DNA of 64,000 bases, taken from Bacteroidetes bacterium HGW-Bacteroidetes-10. Lineage in GTDB: Bacteria; Bacteroidota; Bacteroidia; Bacteroidales; UBA932. The notes under the pieces were generated by a model that was not told where the DNA came from, did not search any database, and saw only the letters and a program-made list of their open reading frames with translations. Positions 1,728 through 17,942 of this stretch are shown here, piece by piece (position 1 is the first letter of the stretch; each line of letters starts with the position of its first letter). The stretch is taken from assembly GCA_002842695.1 (NCBI GenBank), contig PHDT01000002.1:1-64000 (forward strand), in the 5' to 3' direction. The translations under genes were made by a program, and so were the position numbers.

Positions 1728-3368
1728 CTACTGTTCATTAGAATTACTAATATTAATATTTAGTACGTCTGACCCAATTTTGGTAATACCTTGTTGGCTG
1801 CTGGCGTTTTTCTGAGTGACCCTGCTTGTCAATTGGTGATTGGTGTCTAAAGCAGGCATTTTAGAATTTATAAATTTTATTTCATTGTCGAAAACGCCTG
1901 TATCTAAAATTGCTTTGCATAACATTTCAATTACTGGTATAGAAACGCTGTTGCCCACTAATTTCATCCACCTAGCTCTGTTTAAGGGTAAAATATAATC
2001 TTTTGGAAAACCTTGAATCATACAGGCTTCTTCTTTTGTAATTCTTCTGTAATTTTCTTTTTTATAAATCTTTTCAATGAATTGCTTTTTATGATCAGCT
2101 TCGTTTTTCGCATTGATAATTTTTGTAGTTACAAAATCGTTTGTGTCACTTGCAACAAGAGTTGGAAAAATGTTTGAAGTTGGTAAAAACACTCTGTTTA
2201 TTCCATAAAGACCTGTACTAATTTTCGTGTTTTTAAAATCGTACCTTTCTTCTTTGATTGTCAAAATGCCTTGCTCAATAAGTGGAAGAATTGATTTGGT
2301 AATAGAAATTTTTCTGACTTTTAAATCTCTATTCATTTTTAATTTATCTATTACTAAAACATCGTTTTCAGATAGACTTAATAAAAGGTTTTCTTCTTCC
2401 GAAATTTCTTTAATTTTAGATTTGTTGATATTAAATGAATAATATTCTTTCTTTAAAATTTTTAGCGCAACCAATTCTTCTAGTTCATTTTCTGTTATGG
2501 TTTTGTCTAACCCTTGGAAATGTTCTAAAGACAAAGGATTTCCGTCTAAATCACCATAAGCACTTTTTCGTCTGTTTTTGAGTAATAAATAACAGATTTT
2601 CTTTTGTCTTTCAGTTGTATCTAAAATATCCCAAGAATGAATGGTTGTATGTCCATTTCGTAAGTCATTGAAAAGGAAATAATCGTTCAACCCATTGCTG
2701 GTTGATAAACTCATACTTTTTGGGGTAATGGATTCACCAAATAAATCTCTTGGCATTTCATTATCTGTTTCAATAAATTTTCCAATGAAGTCAGATAAAA
2801 TGTCTGCCAACTTTATCTTTTGTTCAATTGGTTTTGGGATTTTAAATTTGTCTGCAAATTTTTTATCTCGAAAGCCAATAATATAAATTCTAATTCTATT
2901 TTGAGGGACACCATAGTCGAATGAATTTAAAACATAGTAATTAGCAAAATAACCTGCTTCTTTTATTCTATCTAAAATGTAAATTAATGCTTTTTTATTT
3001 CTTGGGTCAACCAACCCTTTTACGTTTTCAAAAATAAATGCATCTGGTTTAGATTGATTTAAAAGAAATATAGTGTCATTCCAAAGTTGCCCTCTGTCAT
3101 CATCAAAACCTAAATTTCTTCCAGCTATTGACCAACTTTGACAAGGAACACCTGCCGTCAAGATATTATGTTTCGGCAATTCCTTAATTTTAGTAATATC
3201 TCCTAAATTTTTTTCGATAGATTCGTTTGAGTTTGCACAATAAGCAGTTACAGCATCTTTACTGATTTCGCTAAAATGTAAACACTCTCCACCGTTTTTT
3301 TCGAGTGCGATTCTGAAACCACCAATACCTGAAAACAGATCAATAAATGTAAATTTTGCTTTTTCCAT
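1728..3368 (-). CDS. DNA (cytosine-5-)-methyltransferase of a type II R-M system
   Basis: m5C MTase motifs: FIDLFSGIGGF (I), GVPCQSWSIAG (IV, PCQ), FENVKGL (VI, ENV), QNRIRIYIIG (VIII), LVGNSVSIPV (X). Confidence 0.95.
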   Translation of the reverse strand: MEKAKFTFIDLFSGIGGFRIALEKNGGECLHFSEISKDAVTAYCANSNESIEKNLGDITKIKELPKHNILTAGVPCQSWSIAGRNLGFDDDRGQLWNDTIFLLNQSKPDAFIFENVKGLVDPRNKKALIYILDRIKEAGYFANYYVLNSFDYGVPQNRIRIYIIGFRDKKFADKFKIPKPIEQKIKLADILSDFIGKFIETDNEMPRDLFGESITPKSMSLSTSNGLNDYFLFNDLRNGHTTIHSWDILDTTERQKKICYLLLKNRRKSAYGDLDGNPLSLEHFQGLDKTITENELEELVALKILKKEYYSFNINKSKIKEISEEENLLLSLSENDVLVIDKLKMNRDLKVRKISITKSILPLIEQGILTIKEERYDFKNTKISTGLYGINRVFLPTSNIFPTLVASDTNDFVTTKIINAKNEADHKKQFIEKIYKKENYRRITKEEACMIQGFPKDYILPLNRARWMKLVGNSVSIPVIEMLCKAILDTGVFDNEIKFINSKMPALDTNHQLTSRVTQKNASSQQGITKIGSDVLNINISNSNEQ

Positions 3369-3373
3369 GTTTC

Positions 3374-4210
3374 CTATTTAAGTGGTGATTCATCAAAGTT
3401 TTGTGGTGGGTCAATTTCTAAAAACTCTTTGTAAATGCGTTCTCTATATCCTTTTCCGAGTTTGTTTACTTCGGAAATAAAAGTTTTATAAGTTCCTTCT
3501 CCACCAATCAAATCCCAAAACTCGTTTCCAATTAATACAGATTCGTCTTCGTGCATATTGAACCAGCGCATTGGAAAAGTCCACTTATAGTCCTTTTTCT
3601 TTCCATAAGGATTGTAAGCAAGTGCATAATAAGCATAGTCTACTTGCTTTGGATTCATTGCCAAAAGTTTCAACATTTTTTCTTTGCTTACTTTTGTTTG
3701 GTCACTATTTGGTAACGGTGCTTTGATTTCAAACGCATATTTCGTGTTAGTTTCCTTGTTATAAATGAAAATATCACATGTTACACTGACAGGGATAGGT
3801 TTTCCTCCACCTTTAAGTATGTAGTCTAGTTCTTCTTTCCAATTTGGTTTTACTCTCAGTTGGCCTTTTGGATTATGCTCAAGTCTGTTTAAAACTTCTT
3901 GAATTCGTCTTAAACTTTCACTTCCAACTGTTCCATATATGCTATGTCCTAATGAGCAATTTCCGTGTGCTTCAATTGCAACAACTTGTGCTAATTTTTC
4001 CCAAACACCACCAAATGGTGTTACAAATCTTCTCTCAAAATGTGAACCTTTGAAAATTTCGTCAGGTACTAATGCTGCATAAAGTGGTTTTGAAGAATGG
4101 TGTGCTTCTTTTATAAATGGGTCGTTTATGAGTACATTATTCATTACCCTGTCCATCATAGTAGAAACTACTGTTTTTATGGCTTCTGCAACTCGCTTTT
4201 CCTTACTCAT
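3374..4210 (-). CDS. type II restriction endonuclease, TdeIII-like
   Basis: Adjacent to MTase (5-nt gap); PDEIFKGSHFERRFVTPFG, RRIQEVLNRLEH and PD-(D/E)xK-like CDIFIYNKETNTKYAFEIKAPLPNSDQTK resemble the TdeIII family. Confidence 0.75.
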   Translation of the reverse strand: MSKEKRVAEAIKTVVSTMMDRVMNNVLINDPFIKEAHHSSKPLYAALVPDEIFKGSHFERRFVTPFGGVWEKLAQVVAIEAHGNCSLGHSIYGTVGSESLRRIQEVLNRLEHNPKGQLRVKPNWKEELDYILKGGGKPIPVSVTCDIFIYNKETNTKYAFEIKAPLPNSDQTKVSKEKMLKLLAMNPKQVDYAYYALAYNPYGKKKDYKWTFPMRWFNMHEDESVLIGNEFWDLIGGEGTYKTFISEVNKLGKGYRERIYKEFLEIDPPQNFDESPLK

Positions 4211-5281: not shown

Positions 5282-8200
5282 TTACCGTTTTAATTCCCAT
5301 TTTTGAAAATCATTTTCCAGAAATTCAAATTTCTTCTCAAATAAACTTGCAAGGCGAGCATTTGCTGTAGCAAAGAAAATCTGTCTTTCTTCCTTTAAAA
5401 TAAAAAAACGTAAATAATCAAGGAAGGAAAGTGCATTTAGATCATCAATATGTGACATTGGGTCGTCAAAAATCATAAGGTTAGGGCCATTCTTCAATTG
5501 CCTGTTCAAGCTGATAAAGATAGATAATGCAAGGGCTGCTCGCTGCCCTGTGCTTATTTCATTAACCTTATGCCATTTATCATTATCCTTAATCAAAAAA
5601 AGTTGCTTATCTTGAAATACTAGCGATTTGAACTCTCTAGGTGAGTGGATAGTTTTAAAAACATCAACTATTTCTTTCAAATTATTCTCAAAGAAACTAT
5701 CTAATTGCTCAGTTCCATCGGACTGCCTGAGTGATTGGAGGGCTTCAAAACCCTCTTTAATCCTTTTAAATTTTTCGATGTTATTATCCAAAAAAGTCTG
5801 TGATTGAAGTTTTAGTCTTTTTGCTTGATTTAATTCGTATTGATTTTTTTGCTCCGCTTTAAGAGATGCTAGGTTTTTTTGCAAAACCGATAAACGGAGG
5901 TCAATTTCTGAAACTTGTTCGTCAATTTGTACTTCAATCACTTGGATAAGTTGATTAAAATAGTATTCAATATCGGTAATACTTCGTTTTTCTCTGACAA
6001 GAATGGAAATTAGTTCATCCAAAGTATAGGATTTGTCCTCCTCGAGCCCTATTGATTTTTTAAAATTAGCATTAAGTTTAAATTTTATTTCTTGTATTAT
6101 ATCAAGCTGTTCTTTAAGTTGAACATTCTTGGAATTTAACTCTGCAAACTTGTCCTCAAATAATTTCTTATTATCAAACGCCAATATAAATTCCGGCCCT
6201 ATGTCCGTAATAAGTTTATTACTAATATAAGAGAATTCATCTTCTGTAATGTTAAAGGACTCGATAGTTTGTTGGAAAGCCTCATACTCCTGCTTTCTCT
6301 TATTGAAATTACTTTCTTCTTCTTTGAACTTCGAAATATCCTGAACGATTTTAGCAAGCGTTATGTCATTGAAATCGCTGATAAAAGTATTTTCATAAAC
6401 AGCCATAATCGTTGACAGATCATTCAGAATCATCGTAAACTTCGCTACTTTCTCTTTTGCTGCCTGCTGTTTTTGATGAAGCTCATCTATTTTATCCTGG
6501 TTTTTCTTGGAATTGCTTAGAATTACTTCTTTAATTCTTTTTTGCAAATCCAAATGTTCAAATGGTGATTGACACAAGGGGCATGAATCGGCATCAGGAG
6601 ACAGTGTTAAGTATTCTTTTCCTAATAGTTTTATTTCATTAATTACCTTTTCTGTATTACTTAAATGTGAAAGTAGGTTTTTCAATTCTGTTTCCGAATT
6701 ATCCAGTTCAGATTTGGCTGCGGCCAGATTAGCCCGGTTCCTAGCTATGACTTTGTTAATATCTTCTTCCGTGGAGTAAGTCTGAATAGCTACACTTCCA
6801 AGCCCCCTGTTCATTGTCTTTATCCTTCGTAAGGTTCCTTCAATGTCCAATTTTCGTTTATTAAAACCTTTTACCTCAAATAGCCTCGGGTCCGTAAAGT
6901 ATTTATTAACTGATTCCAGAAGGCTAGCTTTAGTAGCAATCGAATTTATCGACTGTTCAAGCTTGGAAATGTCTTTAGCTATTATCTCAAGGTTTTCTTT
7001 ATACTCATTAAAAGAAATTTCCTTTTGAGAAAGTTCCGTTTTAGCTTTCTCCAATTCTTTCAGATTGGCAAAGGAAGGTATTTTTGATGTCAAGATTTTT
7101 TCAGTCAGTGCTTTTACCTGGTTAATCAACGACTCTGTTTCTCCAGAGATTTTTTCAGGATTGAGGTCTTTATTTTTAAAGTGCAATGCTTTAATATTGT
7201 CTGCAATAATTCTACTTAGAGCATTGAGTGTTTCTGATTTGTCTAACCTTAATATTAGCTGATCAGCATTTTTAATTGTTTCCCTTGCTTCAAGTATGTC
7301 CTTGTTTAACGAGTTATAGTATGGCTTTATCCTGTCGTAAAAACCGTTAATCCTTTCTGAAATATAATTGAATTCAGTTCCAAGGATAATATTGGAAAGT
7401 GCTTGTTTTACCTCATCTTCACTATTACTCTTGGCAAGTTCATTTGCTGCATCCGTATTAAAGAAATTGAATCGATTAAAAGAAGTATAGATGTAATTGT
7501 CTTTTGCATAATTGTTACTGTACCAGTAAGCATCACGTAGCCTGTATTTTGAATTATCATTGGGCGTACAATACTCTGTCAACCGTGAATTATTTATTAT
7601 TGCTTCAATACAATTGTCTGGTTCTTTATTATCTGAATTTCTATACGTTCTTCCACAGGCCACTAATTCGAGTGCTTCAAGCAAACATGTCTTGCCAACG
7701 CCGTTTATTCCTTTAAATAGGTTAACCTTACCAAAGTGGAAAACTCGGGGTTCTTTAGGGTGTTCTCGGTAAGTATTTTTCAACGTTATCTGATTGATAA
7801 AATTTATCTTCATGTTGTCCTTCGCATCGCTGGTGGACTCTATACTAGTATTTATATTTGTCTGGTTGTTGATAAACCGTTCAACTGCTTCTGTGTATTT
7901 AGCTTTTGAATACACTTCCTGGAGATCCACTTTTTTGAGTGTTTCTTTCAGCTGCAAAACAATGTTGGATGACACTACCGTATCGGATTTATCCAGTCTG
8001 AAAAAATCCTCGAATTGAGACTCTGTAAAAACATATTTTCGAGCATACTTATCATTACGTTCAATTTTCTCCTTGGCTTCCGGATTAACTGTGTCCTGAA
8101 GGAGTAAAAGGTAAAGGTTCCATTGAAGATTTCCAGTATGATTATAATATTCATCTGCCAGCAGTTTTTCCTGGTATTCATTAAATGTTTCAACGCAAAC

Positions 8201-8344
8201 CTCGCCACTTAAATCTAGGTAATAAATACCCGCCTGTTTTCCAGATATTTTCAATTCTCCCCTGTACAAATCCGTCTTTTCTGATATTGGATTTATATCA
8301 GGGAAGATATTCCTGGCTAGATCAATTATTTTTTCTTTATCCAT
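5282..8344 (-). CDS. SMC/Rad50/RecN-like ATPase with zinc-hook motif and N-terminal accessory domain
   Basis: Walker A GINGVGKTCLLEAL; signature STGQRAALALSIF; Walker B NLMIFDDPMSHID; coiled coil with central CPLCQSPF. Confidence 0.88.
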   Translation of the reverse strand: MDKEKIIDLARNIFPDINPISEKTDLYRGELKISGKQAGIYYLDLSGEVCVETFNEYQEKLLADEYYNHTGNLQWNLYLLLLQDTVNPEAKEKIERNDKYARKYVFTESQFEDFFRLDKSDTVVSSNIVLQLKETLKKVDLQEVYSKAKYTEAVERFINNQTNINTSIESTSDAKDNMKINFINQITLKNTYREHPKEPRVFHFGKVNLFKGINGVGKTCLLEALELVACGRTYRNSDNKEPDNCIEAIINNSRLTEYCTPNDNSKYRLRDAYWYSNNYAKDNYIYTSFNRFNFFNTDAANELAKSNSEDEVKQALSNIILGTEFNYISERINGFYDRIKPYYNSLNKDILEARETIKNADQLILRLDKSETLNALSRIIADNIKALHFKNKDLNPEKISGETESLINQVKALTEKILTSKIPSFANLKELEKAKTELSQKEISFNEYKENLEIIAKDISKLEQSINSIATKASLLESVNKYFTDPRLFEVKGFNKRKLDIEGTLRRIKTMNRGLGSVAIQTYSTEEDINKVIARNRANLAAAKSELDNSETELKNLLSHLSNTEKVINEIKLLGKEYLTLSPDADSCPLCQSPFEHLDLQKRIKEVILSNSKKNQDKIDELHQKQQAAKEKVAKFTMILNDLSTIMAVYENTFISDFNDITLAKIVQDISKFKEEESNFNKRKQEYEAFQQTIESFNITEDEFSYISNKLITDIGPEFILAFDNKKLFEDKFAELNSKNVQLKEQLDIIQEIKFKLNANFKKSIGLEEDKSYTLDELISILVREKRSITDIEYYFNQLIQVIEVQIDEQVSEIDLRLSVLQKNLASLKAEQKNQYELNQAKRLKLQSQTFLDNNIEKFKRIKEGFEALQSLRQSDGTEQLDSFFENNLKEIVDVFKTIHSPREFKSLVFQDKQLFLIKDNDKWHKVNEISTGQRAALALSIFISLNRQLKNGPNLMIFDDPMSHIDDLNALSFLDYLRFFILKEERQIFFATANARLASLFEKKFEFLENDFQKWELKR

Positions 8345-8351
8345 GAGTTTA

Positions 8352-10094
8352 TTATTTCAAAAATGTGGGACCTTCAAAATCGCTAGTTACAGCTATATTT
8401 CCGGCATTAAGGTCATATTTAGATAAAATGGTATTGCCGCGTTTATAAAAAACAACAACCCGCCTCTTATGGTTATTATCCTTGTCAAACATCGCTTGTA
8501 AAAAATCAAATGTTTTCTCAATTACTCCATCCGGCATAGTACCTATAAAACAAATAGTCGCAATTCGCCTTTCCCCAGTAATGGTCAGGACATTGAATTT
8601 GTAGTTATCTGCATTTGAATCTGCATTATATCCAATAACAAGCTCATCTGTTTTCAAATCTGCGATACTATCAGGATATACATCTTTATCTGGAAGTACA
8701 TAATCGTTTAATACAGCTATTGTGTCAATATAATTGGATCGTTGCGCAAGGCTATCGGGGTATGTATCTTCCGTAAACGTGATACGGCGGTTCACCTCTG
8801 AATCTTCATTAATCTTTATGGAAAATATATTAGGAATGTTACTCCAGGTACTCCCTAACTCCTTATCTATTTTTCCGGATGTCAGACAGACAAGCTTTTC
8901 CTTTTCTAGAATGCAATTTTGATGGGTAATCAAAAAATTACATGTACATCCGACCCCTGTCAAATAGTTAACATGTTGATCAGAAATTTCATTAGGTAGC
9001 GTTTCAATGGCATTTCGAGCAGCATTAAAATCACAAGTTTCAAGAAGCTCCGGCCCTTCGCGCCGAATTTGCTGATTCAATGCATATATAATATCAACAG
9101 GAGGTATCGCCACATGAAAAACAGTAGGAGTGCTATTTAATAAGAACGCATGTTTTTTTATTCCATAAAAGAAGTAATACATGCCACGCATGTGATTTTT
9201 CTTTATCCTGGCCGGAGATAAATCTATTTCTTCAGATTGAATGTAAAACCCGCTTCTAGAGGTTTTATACTTCATAAAATCAGCGTCACCTATTTTTGAC
9301 TTGTTGTTCCAGTTTAGCGAGATAATCTCTTTTTTTGAAAACCGAAATACAAATTTTCTAAAGTCAGTAAAATTTTGGTGAGTAGGATCAGGATTAAGTT
9401 GAGGATTATAAATAAGGAAAGGACAATCTATCCATCCTTGAATAGCTTGTTGATTTTGTTGCATGGCTTCGGGAAAGTTCATGGCCTCCGAGCAAATGAG
9501 GGAAAAAAATGAAATCGAATCCGGGCAGTTCCTCAAAATATAAATCTGATTTCCCTGGATTAGATTGTCTCTCTCTACAATCCCTCCGCCCCATATTCCC
9601 ATGTGAATAGTCTTAAACTGTAATAAAACTATTAGCTTCTCATGGCCGCAATGTATTCCTCGGAATAAATAAATCAAAGGATCAACATAATTGTGTTGAT
9701 TTTCAAGAACGGAGGTATCAAAGTGAACATAAATATTTTCTGTATTGTGGTTAGTCTGCAGGGCTTTCAACTGTTGTTTGGTCATTGACTCACAACCGAT
9801 TGCCCACAGTTTTTCAGCCGCTGGCCATTTATGAGGATGGCTGATTATATCTTCAATTACTATTAATGGACATGAGTATTCAGGAGTAAGTGTCAGGTCA
9901 CACCTGGTCAACCGTGACTTTTCAAAAAACAGTTCAAATTCAGTATTAACATTATTGCGGTTACCGATTCGAGTATTGTCAGCGTAAATCAATCCTTCAT
10001 GCTGGTACAAGAGAACGGAGTGACGTTGGGAAATTCGTCTTAGTATTGATAAATCTATTTTGATTTCAAGATCGCCGATTGGTAAAAAATTCAT
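8352..10094 (-). CDS. nitrilase-superfamily-like protein, operonic partner of the ATPase
   Basis: 580 aa; candidate Glu (DLTLTPEYSCP), Lys (LLQFKTIHMG) and Cys (FSLICSEAMNFPEAM) in nitrilase order; 7-nt gap to the ATPase gene. Confidence 0.6.
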   Translation of the reverse strand: MNFLPIGDLEIKIDLSILRRISQRHSVLLYQHEGLIYADNTRIGNRNNVNTEFELFFEKSRLTRCDLTLTPEYSCPLIVIEDIISHPHKWPAAEKLWAIGCESMTKQQLKALQTNHNTENIYVHFDTSVLENQHNYVDPLIYLFRGIHCGHEKLIVLLQFKTIHMGIWGGGIVERDNLIQGNQIYILRNCPDSISFFSLICSEAMNFPEAMQQNQQAIQGWIDCPFLIYNPQLNPDPTHQNFTDFRKFVFRFSKKEIISLNWNNKSKIGDADFMKYKTSRSGFYIQSEEIDLSPARIKKNHMRGMYYFFYGIKKHAFLLNSTPTVFHVAIPPVDIIYALNQQIRREGPELLETCDFNAARNAIETLPNEISDQHVNYLTGVGCTCNFLITHQNCILEKEKLVCLTSGKIDKELGSTWSNIPNIFSIKINEDSEVNRRITFTEDTYPDSLAQRSNYIDTIAVLNDYVLPDKDVYPDSIADLKTDELVIGYNADSNADNYKFNVLTITGERRIATICFIGTMPDGVIEKTFDFLQAMFDKDNNHKRRVVVFYKRGNTILSKYDLNAGNIAVTSDFEGPTFLK

Positions 10095-11021: not shown

Positions 11022-11164
11022 TTACTGTTACCCATATATTATTTTGCTAACTTGGATATATATTCGATTGTTTAAACACACTTAATTGTCGAGGAATAGT
11101 TTACATTAATATTTATTCTTCTCACTCTATCAGTATTCGAAACTTACAGAGTAGACTTATTATA

Positions 11165-11520
11165 TTTAAACCATTGGTAAATTTAATAAAAAATGATTAA
11201 ACTTCTTCCTAAAAGACAAAAACTCAGAGTTGTGTCAGTCATTCTCATTCCGCTCCACAAGCTCCGCTCCATTCGAATCACTGACCTAACTTTTACTTCC
11301 GCTAAGAGATTGTCATCTTCCATTCCGCTTACGCATTCGCTCTCGCTCCATTTCAGATAACAAACTCTTTACGCTCCAGGATTAAATCGGTATTCGCTTC
11401 GCTCATGATATGGATAGAAATGAATACACGCCGGGTTAGGGGAATTCATCAATAAAATGAATCGAATTCCACAACTTACTTCACAGTTCTTCCTCCTGGC
11501 GTGTCCATTTCTATCCATCT
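11165..11520. repeat. right copy of degenerate ~300-bp direct repeat (core 11250-11285)
   Basis: 36-bp exact match to 4541-4576 within a longer gapped alignment. Confidence 0.7.
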
Positions 11521-11925
11521 CTTTTTGATATTCGGGCTTCGCTTCGCACATCCCTCAATTAGGCCGCCCCTATTTAACATAATCTGAGCCTTAATTGTAT
11601 TTTCTCAGTTCCGCCGGCTCCACTTCTAAACACAATTCAGATTATGTGTAAATATGGGCGTCCACCCTCTGTGAAAATATGATAAAATCCGCAGGCTTTA
11701 GGCCTGCTCCCCATTTTCTCATATTTTCCAGAGGAGAGAAGAGCGGCTTCGCCGCACCGGTTTCACAGCCTCCGGCTGATTTAAAATGTTGCTCCCTCAT
11801 GTCCGCTACCTTAATAAACTGCCCCCGCTACGCTTCGGGGCAGTATCCTTTTCAAAATATCAGAGAAACCCTGATTTCAGTATAACGAAGGGGAGTTCGC
11901 CAGCGAACACCCCTTTCATATTTCT
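11400..11925. repeat. series of long imperfect inverted repeats (hairpin-rich non-coding tract)
   Basis: atggatagaaatgaatacacgcc/ggcgtgtccatttctatccat; cgcccctatttaacataatctga/tcagattatgtgtaaatatgggcg; cctctgtgaaaatatga/tcatattttccagagg; ctgcccccgctacgcttcggggcag. Confidence 0.7.
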
Positions 11926-11959
11926 ATCTGTCTTCTTCATGATAATCCTTCATTAAGTC

Positions 11960-12640
11960 ATTTTAAACCACCTCTGTGCCGGCTATGCCACCACAGAAGA
12001 GAGAGAGGTATGTTTTAAAGCTGCTTCGCAGCGATTCTCAAGAATATTCATGAACGTGGAAATGTTCCACTTCGTATCCCTCCGATTTACGCTCCAGCCA
12101 CTTCGTTGCTTCCGCGACCTTCGGGCTACTCAGCTCCACATATCCAAATACGTCAACAAACATTTGACACGTTTAAACCTCCACTGCACCGGCTGTACCG
12201 TCACAGAGGAGAGAGCGGTATAATTCTTTCGCTGCTTCGCAGCTGTGTGCATTAATATCAATATGTCTGGAAATGTTTCGCTCCGTATCCCTCCGTGTGC
12301 GCTCCATTCACTTCGCTACTTCCGCGACCTCCAGGATACTTTGCTCTACATCTCCAAATACTTCAACATACATTTGACATGTATAAACCTCCACAGTACC
12401 GGCTGCGCCGGCACAGAGGAGAGAGAGGTAGATTTCTTATGCTGCTTCGCAGCTGTGAGTATTAATATCGATAAGTCTGGAAATGTTCCGCATTGTATCC
12501 CTCCGGTGACCGCTCCAGCCACTTCATGGCTTCCGCGACCTTCGGTATCCAACACTTCACATATCCAAATACTCAAAATCAATTCAAACACGTTTAAACC
12601 TCCACTATGCCGGCTACGCCGTCACAGAGGAGAGGATTGT
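11960..12640. repeat. tandem repeat, ~210/211-bp unit, three full copies plus a partial fourth
   Basis: Unit starts near 11961, 12171, 12381, 12592 (tttaaacctccac...ccggct...gtcacagaggaga...gctgcttcgcagc...ggaaatgtt...tatccctccg...cttccgcgacct...catatccaaata). Confidence 0.85.
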
Positions 12641-13108: not shown

Positions 13109-13828
13109 ATGCCATTGTATCAACCAAATATCAAGTTTTCGGACTGCTGGTCTTCAGTGGGCAATATCACTTATTATCACCGCCACAAAAAGTGTTACTG
13201 GCGGACCAAGCCGGCTCCTCAGTTCCCTGGGACAATGAAACAGATGGATCATCAGGCTGTGCACCTCCGGGCGCTTGCATCATGGAGGAGCTTGTCTCAC
13301 CATGTACAATTGGAATGGGCGGATTATGCAAAAGTGGTGACAGCTCACCGGCCACCATTCTTAAATGAGAATCATATCAGCGGATACAATCTGTTTGTGT
13401 CGGCTTACCATGGTTTTGCTACCCTAGGGAATGAACATATTCCGACACCGGCAAGATTTCAAGAGTTTCCTCAATTTGATGCTACTTTTATTTCTGCAGA
13501 GATTGTTGGAGGATCTGATTTATTAATTCAGTTCTCGTTGTCTGTTTCCGGCACCGATAATCCTTTAAGGTACAGGACTCTCGGAAAGATTCAGTTGGTG
13601 GCTCCGGGCAGAGGTTGTCATCCGGGGAAGATGCTTAATTTTCTGTCCGCTGAGGTGCAGTCTGTGCCTCAAAAGCCTAGAGTCATAAGTTTTACCATAC
13701 CTAATTACTGGGATGTTTGGAGCCTGGACCTACCGGCTTATACATTGCATTTTCGATATCTTCTGTTAGATACTTTGAACGGTTATAGGAATTTGCATAA
13801 AAGCTTATCTTGCTCATTTTCTTTGTAG
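13109..13828 (+). CDS. DUF6266-like hypothetical protein, divergent paralog 1
   Basis: Shares W..YAK/W..LA, HISGYNLFVSA..F and proline-rich motifs with the 13912 and 15821 products. Confidence 0.6.
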   Translation: MPLYQPNIKFSDCWSSVGNITYYHRHKKCYWRTKPAPQFPGTMKQMDHQAVHLRALASWRSLSHHVQLEWADYAKVVTAHRPPFLNENHISGYNLFVSAYHGFATLGNEHIPTPARFQEFPQFDATFISAEIVGGSDLLIQFSLSVSGTDNPLRYRTLGKIQLVAPGRGCHPGKMLNFLSAEVQSVPQKPRVISFTIPNYWDVWSLDLPAYTLHFRYLLLDTLNGYRNLHKSLSCSFSL

Positions 13829-13911
13829 AAATAATTTTACCTATACTAATACTTTATATAAACATCTTATATTTGCAATAGAATAATTAGTTATGATTAA
13901 ACTATTGCCAT

Positions 13912-14979
13912 ATGAAGATACTTCCATCAGTTGCTTTTAACGACTTTTCCGGCTCAGCCGGTCAGGTCACTGCTCGAAAAGTTGGGGATAAAACCTACCT
14001 TTCTACACGGACTAAACATTCCAGAAAAACAACACCATCTCAGGCTTCAATACGTTGCCGATTCGGAAATACAAACATTGGTTACTCGAAGCTTACAGAG
14101 GGGCAGCGCTTAGGCTGGAGTTATTTGGCCAGTAGTCTTGGTGAATATGCAACCTCTACAGGTAATACGACGATAACTGGTCATAATCTTTTTGTGTCCA
14201 TTAACACTTTCCGTTCGATTTGTGGTAAACCTATAACTCGTTCTGCTCCTGCTCAACTATTACCATCTCGATATATTAATGTTGGTGATATTTGGCTTAC
14301 CCCTGAACACGTCATTTTTGCAAACGTTGCACTCATAGAGGGGACTGATGACGTGGTCCTTTTTGAGATGTATGCGGCTAAAAGTCCTGCGGAAACAAAT
14401 GGATGGGATAAAACGTCAATTGTTGCGGTGGTTGCTTCAACAGACTGGGGCGAAGTTGACCTTACTAAAGCATATTTGGAGAAATTCGGTATTCCTATAA
14501 AAATTGGGCAACGTATTTATATCAAAGTATGCAAATTAAACTCGGAGTGTGGTTATGTAAAGTGGTTTTCTATGCATGGTTATTTTGCCAGTGAGAGATC
14601 TACTCTACACCAAAGACTCTATATACCTCGTGCAAAAATTAAAATGGAGATGATTAATCCAATCACTCAGAATTACGAGTGTGATGCAATTGATTATGAA
14701 ATATCTCCAGGTCCGAAAATTACTTCAAATAACATTACTGTAAGATCCTTGCAAGATTTCCTGGTAACATGCGATTTCCTCCACAACGGGCTTACTGATG
14801 CATTTGATTTTGAGCGCTCATATCAATATTCTAGATCACCTGCCGAAAGAAATTTTTTTATTCAATGCATGGAAGTTAAGGTATACAATAACAGTACTAA
14901 AAAAATTAGTCTTTATTGTTTTGCCGGAGTATATACAAAGCATTTTGAAACATTTGGAACCTACTTTATAACAAATTAA
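13912..14979 (+). CDS. DUF6266-like hypothetical protein, paralog 2
   Basis: N-terminus MKILPSVAFNDFSGSAGQVTARKVGDKTYLSTR parallels MKYTPSIAFEEFAGSAKGVTAAKSRGRKYIRNR of 15821. Confidence 0.7.
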   Translation: MKILPSVAFNDFSGSAGQVTARKVGDKTYLSTRTKHSRKTTPSQASIRCRFGNTNIGYSKLTEGQRLGWSYLASSLGEYATSTGNTTITGHNLFVSINTFRSICGKPITRSAPAQLLPSRYINVGDIWLTPEHVIFANVALIEGTDDVVLFEMYAAKSPAETNGWDKTSIVAVVASTDWGEVDLTKAYLEKFGIPIKIGQRIYIKVCKLNSECGYVKWFSMHGYFASERSTLHQRLYIPRAKIKMEMINPITQNYECDAIDYEISPGPKITSNNITVRSLQDFLVTCDFLHNGLTDAFDFERSYQYSRSPAERNFFIQCMEVKVYNNSTKKISLYCFAGVYTKHFETFGTYFITN

Positions 14980-14991
14980 TGACTGACTATT

Positions 14992-15708
14992 ATGATAACG
15001 CTTGAGCTTAATAATTTCGGAAGTGGCAGTGTGATATTTAAGAATTATCAGAGTCCCGGCCTCTGTGTCTTAAATGGTAAAATCACTGTTGACCCCACTA
15101 ATGCGGCATACATCGCAGCAAACAGATTAGAATTTGACCTGCCTGCAGGATTTGCCATGCCAAGAAGTGCAATCTCCTCAGCAATTCTTTTCTCAAATCA
15201 TAGCAAATATCATTATGGTACCGTTTTGAAATGCTGGATTGAGAATAGCAAACTTTGCATAGAGAAGCTCACAGCATGGGACGCTCTGGGCAACTATGTC
15301 ATTTATATAAATTCAGCTTTTGTTACCAGGGGTTACCGTGGGACATTCACACAGACTCCAACAAAACCTTTGACAATTATCAACAGCTATGGGATATTTA
15401 GTTTTAATCGATACTGCTATGTTGAAACAGAATATTTTGTATTCTTAATGGCCACTTTCAATGATTTTCCTGAATATAACTTCATTGGCACAGGGCCATT
15501 TACCCTGGAACTAGGTGGTTTTGCATCTGATGTTAATGTGGAAATTCCATTAATTGTCAATCCAACATCTACTACTTCAGGACAGATAGGCTCAATGCTT
15601 ACTTTCGGCTCTTTAGCAAATAGAAAATTAACATTCAGCTATCCAACAAGTGCACTCAATATGGGTGGTAAATCTTCATTTTTTAACTTTTTTGCTGTTC
15701 GTGGTTAG
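14992..15708 (+). CDS. hypothetical protein of phage-like block
   Basis: 238-aa ORF 12 nt after the preceding gene; beta-rich composition. Confidence 0.6.
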   Translation: MITLELNNFGSGSVIFKNYQSPGLCVLNGKITVDPTNAAYIAANRLEFDLPAGFAMPRSAISSAILFSNHSKYHYGTVLKCWIENSKLCIEKLTAWDALGNYVIYINSAFVTRGYRGTFTQTPTKPLTIINSYGIFSFNRYCYVETEYFVFLMATFNDFPEYNFIGTGPFTLELGGFASDVNVEIPLIVNPTSTTSGQIGSMLTFGSLANRKLTFSYPTSALNMGGKSSFFNFFAVRG

Positions 15709-15820
15709 CTTGATTTTATATAAAGTATTACTTTAAATAGAGTTATTTAATTACTTAATATTTTGTATTATAAAATAATTTATATATTTGTATATAATTA
15801 ACCCTTAATCCAAAACTATT

Positions 15821-16510
15821 ATGAAGTACACTCCTTCAATTGCCTTTGAAGAATTTGCGGGTTCAGCAAAGGGCGTGACCGCTGCAAAAAGCCGTGGTCG
15901 CAAATACATCCGTAACAGGGGCTATAGCAGCTCCTCAGCATCATCAACTTACCAGGGAGATGTCAAAACAATCTTTCTGCAGCTAACTAAGGGCTATAAA
16001 ACCCTTACATCAGAACAGATTGCTGCCTGGAATACTCTTGCTCAAACACAGGAAGGCAGATCAGTCCTCGGTTCCAAATCAAAAATCTCCGGATTCAACC
16101 TGTACCTGAGGTTAAATTACTGGGTTGTATCATGTGGCGGTGCCGCTCTCGTTAATCCACCGGCATTGGCAGGAGTGGAATCACCATCAGCGGCTACCCT
16201 TGCTCTTAGCTCCACTGCCTTTACCCTCACTCTCGCCAGCATTCCTGCAGATATTACCAATCTGAAACTGATTGTCAAGGCTTCGGCTCCTCAGTCAAGA
16301 GGAATCAGCGATGCATACTCTAAAGCTTCAGTATTTTCAACTCCTCAAACTCCTGTTACAACCGCAATCGCTCTCAAAGCGGATTACGACTTGAAATACG
16401 GAGCTCCCAACGAAGCCTCTTCAAAGGTATTTGTAAAATGGTTTTATGTAAATACCGTTACCGGAGAGAGATCGGGAGAGATGATTGCACTGGCCACACT
16501 GACCGAATAG
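15821..16510 (+). CDS. DUF6266-like hypothetical protein, paralog 3
   Basis: SIAFEEFAGSAKGVTAAKSRGRKYIRNR ... LTSEQIAAWNTLAQ ... ISGFNLYLRLN pattern. Confidence 0.75.
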   Translation: MKYTPSIAFEEFAGSAKGVTAAKSRGRKYIRNRGYSSSSASSTYQGDVKTIFLQLTKGYKTLTSEQIAAWNTLAQTQEGRSVLGSKSKISGFNLYLRLNYWVVSCGGAALVNPPALAGVESPSAATLALSSTAFTLTLASIPADITNLKLIVKASAPQSRGISDAYSKASVFSTPQTPVTTAIALKADYDLKYGAPNEASSKVFVKWFYVNTVTGERSGEMIALATLTE

Positions 16511-16547
16511 CAGTAGGGGGCCGGCAACAAACTTAGTTCCAAATAAC

Positions 16548-16593
16548 CCTGAACTCCCTGGCTTGTAATTTTACGACTCAGGGAGTTTTTTTT
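16548..16593 (+). terminator. rho-independent terminator
   Basis: aactccctg ... cagggagtttttttt. Confidence 0.75.
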
Positions 16594-16606
16594 AATCTAA
16601 TGCAAA

Positions 16607-16987
16607 ATGACACTAGAATTAATCATCCAACTAATTGAAGTATTGCTTGGCACCGGTGGGGTTGTTGCTCTGTTTTTAATCATTGAGAAGAAAACAGCTG
16701 CCCAGCTGGCAAACACCGAAAAAGCCAATGAGCAATGGCAACTTATCGTTGCTCAAAAGGAGCGCGATTTTTTGGCCCTGAATCAAAAGTATGAAGCAGC
16801 TACGGAGAAGATTGATAAACTCTACGATATCAACACGGACTTAAGGAATCAGCTTGATGTGGCTAATACAAATTTTGCCGTATGCCAGCTGATGCGCTGC
16901 AATGTAATTCAGTGCACTAACCGGTTGCCCCCGCTGAGCAGTAATGAAACTGTAAAGGATCCACATGAAAGGAGGAACGAGCAATGA
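16607..16987 (+). CDS. small membrane protein, holin-like
   Basis: N-terminal TM (LIEVLLGTGGVVALFLI) then charged coiled coil; directly upstream of endolysin-like gene, 4-nt overlap. Confidence 0.55.
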   Translation: MTLELIIQLIEVLLGTGGVVALFLIIEKKTAAQLANTEKANEQWQLIVAQKERDFLALNQKYEAATEKIDKLYDINTDLRNQLDVANTNFAVCQLMRCNVIQCTNRLPPLSSNETVKDPHERRNEQ

Positions 16988-17421
16988 GAACGCCAATATC
17001 AAAAGATTTCTGTTACGAGGAGTTTGAAGCGAGTATAAAAGCTGAGGAGCTGAAGATTGATAATTCCATACCTTCCAAAAGAATAAGATTTGCAATCAGG
17101 CTCCTGGTATTAAACCTGCTGCAACCACTGAGGGATAAAGTTCAGCGTCCGCTTATTCTGACCAGCGGTTATAGATCACCGGCATTAAACAAGGCTGTGG
17201 GAGGTGTTAAGGAGTCTCAACATATGAAAGGAGAGGCTGCCGATATCTCATGTAAAGATGCCATGCAGGTGTTGTTGCTTGGTCAGATAATAATGAGATT
17301 TTCGATACCATTTGATCAGATGATTCTCCATGAGAATTTCATACACCTCTCATTTAAGGCCAAAGGCCGGCAGAGGCATCAGATTATATATGACAAGTCA
17401 TACAAGGAGGCAAAACTATGA
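16984..17421 (+). CDS. peptidase M15A-type endolysin (D-Ala-D-Ala carboxypeptidase-like)
   Basis: LTSGYRSPALNKAVGGVKESQHMKGEAADI ... ILHENFIHLSF, the M15 zinc-ligand pattern. Confidence 0.9.
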   Translation: MRTPISKDFCYEEFEASIKAEELKIDNSIPSKRIRFAIRLLVLNLLQPLRDKVQRPLILTSGYRSPALNKAVGGVKESQHMKGEAADISCKDAMQVLLLGQIIMRFSIPFDQMILHENFIHLSFKAKGRQRHQIIYDKSYKEAKL

Positions 17422-17942
17422 TTACTGTAGACCAAATAAAGAGATATGCCCGGATTGCCGGAATTTTAACAATCTCGATACTGGCAATAATCGGCATCAC
17501 AAGCATTAGTAAATGCAAAAGAACTATCAGCAACGATTCAAAGATCATTGTTCAGCTGGACACACTTTACATTTATGACACCATCCGGATAGAAAAACCG
17601 GTTCCCAAAATAATCAAGAAGATTGACACATTCCTGGTTCAGACAAGAGATACAATCCGGATTAAAGACACCCTTTATCTGGCCCTTCCCAGGGAGCAGA
17701 AAACCTACAAAGACAAAAATTACCAGGCATGGATATCCGGATATCGCCCGGAGCTTGACAGCATTCATATATTCCGGAACACACAGCAAATAATCACCTC
17801 AACAACTATCCAAGCCAAACGGAAATATCGAGGGTGGGGGATAGGTATTCAAGCCGGCTATGGCTTTACACTTCATTCAAATATTATCAAGCCTTCAAGT
17901 TATATTGGAATAGGTGTAAGTTATAACATACTAACATTTTAG
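17418..17942 (+). CDS. membrane-anchored spanin-like/DUF6808-like protein
   Basis: N-terminal TM, periplasmic coiled segment, C-terminal beta segment; overlaps endolysin stop by 4 nt. Confidence 0.5.
   Translation: MITVDQIKRYARIAGILTISILAIIGITSISKCKRTISNDSKIIVQLDTLYIYDTIRIEKPVPKIIKKIDTFLVQTRDTIRIKDTLYLALPREQKTYKDKNYQAWISGYRPELDSIHIFRNTQQIITSTTIQAKRKYRGWGIGIQAGYGFTLHSNIIKPSSYIGIGVSYNILTF

Follow-up and report, generated by a model that had tools for sequence, protein, structure and literature searches.

A two-gene ATPase and nitrilase pair with a fused middle component, most likely a variant of the Lamassu/ABC-3C systems

The gene pair and the proteins it encodes

The window analysed in this study is a stretch of 64,000 nucleotides from Bacteroidetes bacterium HGW-Bacteroidetes-10 (contig PHDT01000002.1, positions 1 to 64,000). 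On its minus strand lie two neighbouring genes, which code for a nitrilase-like protein of 580 amino acids (8352..10094), the putative effector and equivalent of LmuA, and for an SMC/Rad50-like ATPase (SMC, structural maintenance of chromosomes) of 1020 amino acids (5282..8344). The effector gene comes first, and the ATPase gene follows after a gap of 7 nucleotides. Most likely, the pair is a two-gene variant of the Lamassu or ABC-three-component (ABC-3C) systems with a fused middle component and a nitrilase as effector. A first-pass annotation of the window had already described both open reading frames (ORFs) at this spacing, and both were confirmed.

The ATPase possesses a Walker A motif (GINGVGKT, residues 212–219; 7688..7711, minus strand, as for all motifs and domains below), a CPLC motif, which is predicted to form a zinc hook (residues 588–591, within SCPLCQS starting at 587; 6572..6583), an ABC signature (STGQR, residues 931–935; 5540..5554) and a Walker B motif (LMIFDD, residues 956–961, continuing as LMIFDDP; 5462..5479). 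An alignment of 35 pairs, including that of the window, showed that these motifs are kept throughout (35/35), the hook as CPxC and the signature as S(T/S)GQR; every motif named in the first-pass annotation was confirmed. In the Walker B motif, Asp replaces the catalytic Glu; the pattern is DD in all bacterial and DE in the haloarchaeal members. At the same place, a Glu-to-Gln change is found in Lamassu (reviewed in PMC10586767), and in light of both replacements ATP hydrolysis may be slowed throughout the Lamassu group. The best PADLOC matches of the window protein were the LmuB models (E 1.2e-23), which were also the top matches for three homologues, and the Rad50 model of NCBIfam (4.9e-7) and models related to it scored far more weakly.

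The region of about 210 residues in front of Walker A had been noticed earlier and left unexplained. When residues 1–186 (7787..8344) were scanned alone, the Pfam family MComp1 (PF20289) was matched at residues 60–115 with 37.2 bits, compared to a curated cut-off of 27.3 (E 2.6e-9). The scan of the whole protein had missed this domain, and the first hint at MComp1 came from a homologue. MComp1 was matched by 15 of 19 homologues, if E values up to 1 are counted, and a six-frame genome search recovered it at the same position. One genome from the same class contains a three-gene operon for an LmuA-type effector of 437 amino acids, an MComp1 protein of 231 amino acids and an LmuB of 774 amino acids, and on plasmids of Bacillus mycoides and Planococcus MComp1 is likewise encoded on its own, in between the genes for the effector and LmuB, and is annotated as 'ABC-three component system middle component 1'. 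Since canonical operons encode the same domain as a gene of its own at this place, the ATPase of the window is, judging from its sequence, a fusion of a middle component with LmuB. A useful canonical comparator is the three-gene ABC-3C operon on plasmid p362 of B. mycoides (L083:385-5459), whose trypsin-like effector carries a CTD4 domain.

In nitrilases, a second active-site Glu sits between the catalytic Lys and Cys. The 580-aa protein contains E72 (TPEY; 9879..9881) as predicted general base, K161 (QFKT; 9612..9614) as predicted catalytic Lys and C201 (LICS; 9492..9494) as predicted nucleophile; the Glu-Lys-Cys triad had been recognized previously. E174 (9573..9575), which had not been mentioned, is located between Lys and Cys and is for this reason predicted to be the second Glu of the tetrad. 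All four residues are invariant in 20 of 20 members. The nitrilase core putatively spans residues ~1–335 (9090..10094), the part of the AlphaFold (AF2) model with high confidence. The model of the whole protein reached a predicted local distance difference test score (pLDDT) of 81.5 and a predicted template modelling score (pTM) of 0.85, and all 42 Foldseek matches to the PDB at E ≤ 1e-3 belonged to the nitrilase superfamily, the best being a Campylobacter protein (3.9e-6). The template modelling scores by target were modest, with a maximum of 0.53, and values around 0.5 indicate that the nitrilase fold is right yet divergent. A profile of the family gave a local alignment to canonical nitrilases from related genomes in the region of the Glu motif (E 3.5e-4), and in the extended alignment the Glu, Lys and Cys of the family fall on those of the canonical enzymes. 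In contrast to these profile and structure comparisons, searches of Pfam, NCBIfam, PADLOC and PDB sequences with the 580-aa protein of the window gave no match. Based on the invariant residues and the predicted structure, the protein is a divergent nitrilase.

The remaining part of the protein (residues ~336–580; 8352..9089) has conserved positions across the homologues and is presumed to be the region that docks to the ATPase. As it is conserved yet matches nothing in Pfam, it may represent an undescribed C-terminal domain (CTD).

Occurrence of the pair and its genomic surroundings

Among 85,462 species genomes, 35 loci were detected, most of them in Pseudomonadota; the others occur in Bacteroidota, in Halobacteria and in metagenome-assembled genomes (MAGs) labelled Phycisphaerae, Holophagae, Syntrophomonas and Desulfobacteraceae. 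The ATPase gene directly follows the nitrilase gene in 34 of the 35 loci, mostly with a short overlap; this count includes loci in which only the beginning of the ATPase is present at a contig end or break. On plasmids, both genes were found in four of four loci, namely in Polaromonas, where the pair adjoins a Hachiman system, in the halophilic archaeon DL31, in Natronorubrum and in Natrarchaeobaculum; the Natronorubrum plasmid is also one of the 35 genome loci. A reverse search with the middle-component domain alone in 398 genomes of the phylum of the window detected one further genome, and here the nitrilase gene lies 2 nucleotides upstream. The pairwise divergences of both proteins over 35 pairs were correlated with r = 0.984, a value that is inflated by the shared descent of close relatives and that was reached by none of 2000 permutations. 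No recurring third gene was found among 117 flanking ORFs: none occurred in more than three loci, and those three were related haloarchaea.

These computed comparisons show that the pairing is obligate, and the co-conservation proposed at the outset thus holds. The arrangement is not due to chance, since both genes recur in unchanged order in further phyla and among archaea. A chance neighbourhood or a loose operon lacking a joint function is hardly credible; no point in its favour was found, and it is already contradicted by the conserved order and near-zero spacing at every usable locus, bacterial or archaeal, and by the matched divergence.

Three loci deviate from this picture. In Pseudoduganella (L038:5968-6270), which is the 35th locus, a nitrilase remnant of about 100 amino acids was found with no ATPase nearby; the remnant is 85% identical to the nitrilase gene of Pseudomonas donghuensis and represents a decayed locus. 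In the Syntrophomonas MAG (L029:2812-4500), the nitrilase gene is split into ORFs of 216 and 337 amino acids, possibly due to a frameshift or a sequencing error, and the following ATPase gene is intact. The pair in a MAG labelled Bacteroidetes (L016, JAFDZY010000062.1) shows about 40% identity to that of Polaromonas and closely resembles the pairs of Betaproteobacteria, which points either to a recent transfer or to a mis-binned contig.

The pair is rare and patchy. Neither 299 sampled genomes of the phylum nor 150 of the family contained another match, and named phages gave no match. Neighbours at the other loci comprise Hachiman, type I specificity subunits, methyltransferases, Mrr-type enzymes, further PADLOC families, integrases and transposases. 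Because of this spread and these neighbours, the setting is consistent with a defence module on mobile DNA. The restriction-modification pair reported next to the two genes in the window is real: downstream are genes for a TdeIII-type restriction enzyme (3374-4210; Pfam E 4.8e-71) and a C5 methyltransferase (1728-3368; 7.6e-78). At the operon, no site with a promoter pattern of the Bacteroidota type was detected.

Upstream of the pair, at a distance of 111 nucleotides, lies an orphan gene for a protein of 271 amino acids (P0003; 10206-11021, minus strand). It was considered as a third component and rejected, as no homologue occurs in any locus of the pair. By eye, this protein shows a nitrilase-like order of motifs (ISLICGET, IILNP, ISVWN) with Leu at the position of the catalytic Glu; the profile comparison was not significant (E 0.095). 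Its one relative (56%) belongs to a genus-mate and is part of a different gene set, which does not include the pair (L081:2283-3155). Between P0003 and the next ORF, more than 1 kb (11040-12240) contains no credible gene, and recurring GCTTCGC- and CTCCG-like words were seen there by eye. Further upstream, a run of small genes on the plus strand (13109-17942), most of them having no Pfam match, includes an M15 peptidase and a DUF6808 protein and may be a stretch derived from a phage or another element.

Relation to Lamassu/ABC-3C and other defence systems

The first-pass annotation had not recognized the pairing as a named system, and this view is not supported: the ATPase matches LmuB of PADLOC and contains an ABC-3C middle component as a fusion, which places the pair within the Lamassu/ABC-3C superfamily. 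Of the features of this group, an LmuB-type ATPase, a middle component (as a fusion) and an effector with an enzymatic domain in the same operon are present. Furthermore, 'C-N hydrolase' is contained in the list of Lamassu effector domains given in the review PMC10586767 after earlier comparative work, so that this class of effector is, in outline, already known. DefenseFinder may also include a class named 'Lamassu-Amidase'. A search of the literature, to which the primary ABC-3C work did not belong, gave no description of the fused middle component, its two-gene layout or the unmatched C-terminal domain of the effector, and there is a real chance that this family is already included in the primary comparative work. 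In the proposed comparison with PADLOC, the ATPase was recognized as LmuB, and the nitrilase protein, both of the window and of the homologues, found no match in PADLOC 2.0; recognition of LmuA by PADLOC is a criterion of the tool and not a biological one. Since PADLOC 2.0 recognizes the ATPase alone, the variant itself is not captured. The earlier interpretation is thus supported in part, namely regarding the fold, the residues, the co-conservation, the logic of an SMC-like sensor with an effector and the defence-related and mobile setting.

Among the closest known systems are the ABC-3C systems with Middle Component 1 (p362 of B. mycoides, L083; L047), which share the LmuB-like ATPase with its Walker motifs, MComp1, the gene order with the effector first and the ATPase last, and a location on plasmids or in defence islands. 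They consist, however, of three genes with a separate middle component, whereas the pair comprises two genes with a fused one, a nitrilase as effector and a C-terminal domain of this effector outside the CTD families of Pfam. Lamassu type I (LmuA and LmuB) likewise consists of two genes for an effector and an SMC-like ATPase; some Lamassu systems do not have a middle component (PMC10586767), but in the pair it exists, fused to the N-terminus of the ATPase. The 'C-N hydrolase' effectors of ABC-3C belong to the same enzyme superfamily and, as listed in that review, may be this very family. In DRT1, a fusion of a reverse transcriptase with a nitrilase, the effector for abortive infection is also a nitrilase and has the same type of catalytic residues. 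The sensor of DRT1, in contrast, is the reverse transcriptase in the same chain, and DRT1 contains neither an SMC ATPase nor a middle component; scans with Pfam, PADLOC and NCBIfam gave no reverse transcriptase match in either protein of the window. DdmABC of Vibrio cholerae resembles the pair in its SMC-like sensor with an effector but differs in having three genes, a Cap4 nuclease as effector and a small third protein, the DUF6521 middle protein (PMC12409362).

Proposed mechanism and alternative explanations

We favour, with a probability of roughly 0.7, the explanation that the pair is a two-gene ABC-3C/Lamassu member in which the nitrilase is set free upon contact with aberrant DNA, hydrolyses an essential C-N bond and thereby halts growth. 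The fusion of middle component and ATPase would dimerise via the ATPase heads and the zinc hook and keep the nitrilase inactive via its C-terminal domain. Aberrant DNA of a phage or plasmid, in the form of ends, hairpins or replication structures, would then trigger an ATP-dependent rearrangement which releases the nitrilase. The released subunits would form an oligomer required for activity, and Cys201, together with Glu72, Lys161 and Glu174, would hydrolyse a C-N bond of an essential target, either a small molecule or the side chain of a protein, so that growth stops before the invader spreads. The putative sensing of DNA, release and oligomerisation are carried over from published work on Lamassu and DRT1. 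In Lamassu, activation liberates LmuA, which assembles into a homo-tetramer (PMC12409362). Nitrilases are typically active only as homo-oligomers, and in DRT1 the nitrilase domain, whose activity depends on tetrameric assembly, acts as an effector of abortive infection (PMC13275509). The proposal of release and assembly is derived from the liberated tetramer of LmuA and from the tetramer dependence of DRT1. That the nitrilase is toxic, acts on such a substrate and serves in defence is what we infer for the pair.

Several observations weigh against this explanation. No member of the family is known to have a phage or plasmid phenotype. Compared to canonical LmuB proteins by single-sequence BLAST, the ATPase is only weakly similar (E 2e-5 and 3e-13). 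The similarity to PF00795 is weak as well, with matches in 2 of 20 members (best E 0.0064) and none in the window protein, and residues 336–580 match no ABC-3C CTD family of Pfam, whereas control effectors of ABC-3C were matched in the same test by CTD4 (2e-29) and CTD1 (6.7e-49). The hhalign comparison of the middle-component profile with one canonical middle-component sequence was not significant, and the identification of this domain therefore rests on the Pfam model.

Members of the nitrilase superfamily act on diverse substrates, which include amides and carbamoyl compounds, and also catalyse acyl transfer. A defence module of the same family might hence protect by a non-abortive route, if the nitrilase alters one particular protein or produces or degrades a signal molecule; the substrate is not readable from the sequence, and that of DRT1 was also left open by the authors (PMC13275509). 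Abortive infection is thought or shown for Lamassu-type systems (PMC10586767, PMC12409362), which makes such a route rather unlikely. A pair for DNA repair or chromosome maintenance of the Rad50/SbcC type with an unusual partner would agree with the coiled coil and its CxxC hook and with the profile matches of the ATPase to solved structures, which are Rad50 heads (E 2.3e-8). This is nevertheless improbable given the far better scores of the LmuB models, the fused ABC-3C middle component, a partner that is a C-N hydrolase and not a nuclease, the patchy spread, and the plasmid locations and mobile neighbours. It would also be conceivable that the N-terminal domain is a nuclease effector and the nitrilase an accessory protein. 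The AlphaFold model of this domain, in which roughly the first 110 residues are predicted with high confidence, matched no Lamassu structure in Foldseek and gave only weak matches to restriction-endonuclease-type folds (best 2p14, E 2.6e-3). The domain, however, has no conserved D...(D/E)xK set, W75 and L141 being its sole invariant residues and E95 nearly so, and the nitrilase residues never vary; a nuclease effector is thus very unlikely.

More tentatively, and somewhat less likely than not, the pairs might represent an uncharacterised two-gene branch of Lamassu that extends across bacteria and haloarchaea; it would combine the fused middle component with a new domain for docking of the effector and with a nitrilase which halts infected cells through hydrolysis of an essential C-N bonded molecule, a chemistry almost unprecedented in immunity. 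Nitrilases were described by the authors of the DRT1 study as having no precedent in antiphage defence (PMC13275509). The effector of the pair is missed by PADLOC 2.0, a common annotator of defence systems. That middle component and ATPase are naturally fused suggests which subunits of Lamassu are in contact, and with only two proteins the pair is a simpler object for structural studies. If a sensor unrelated to that of DRT1 also employs a nitrilase, the question of the substrate could be tested in both systems side by side.

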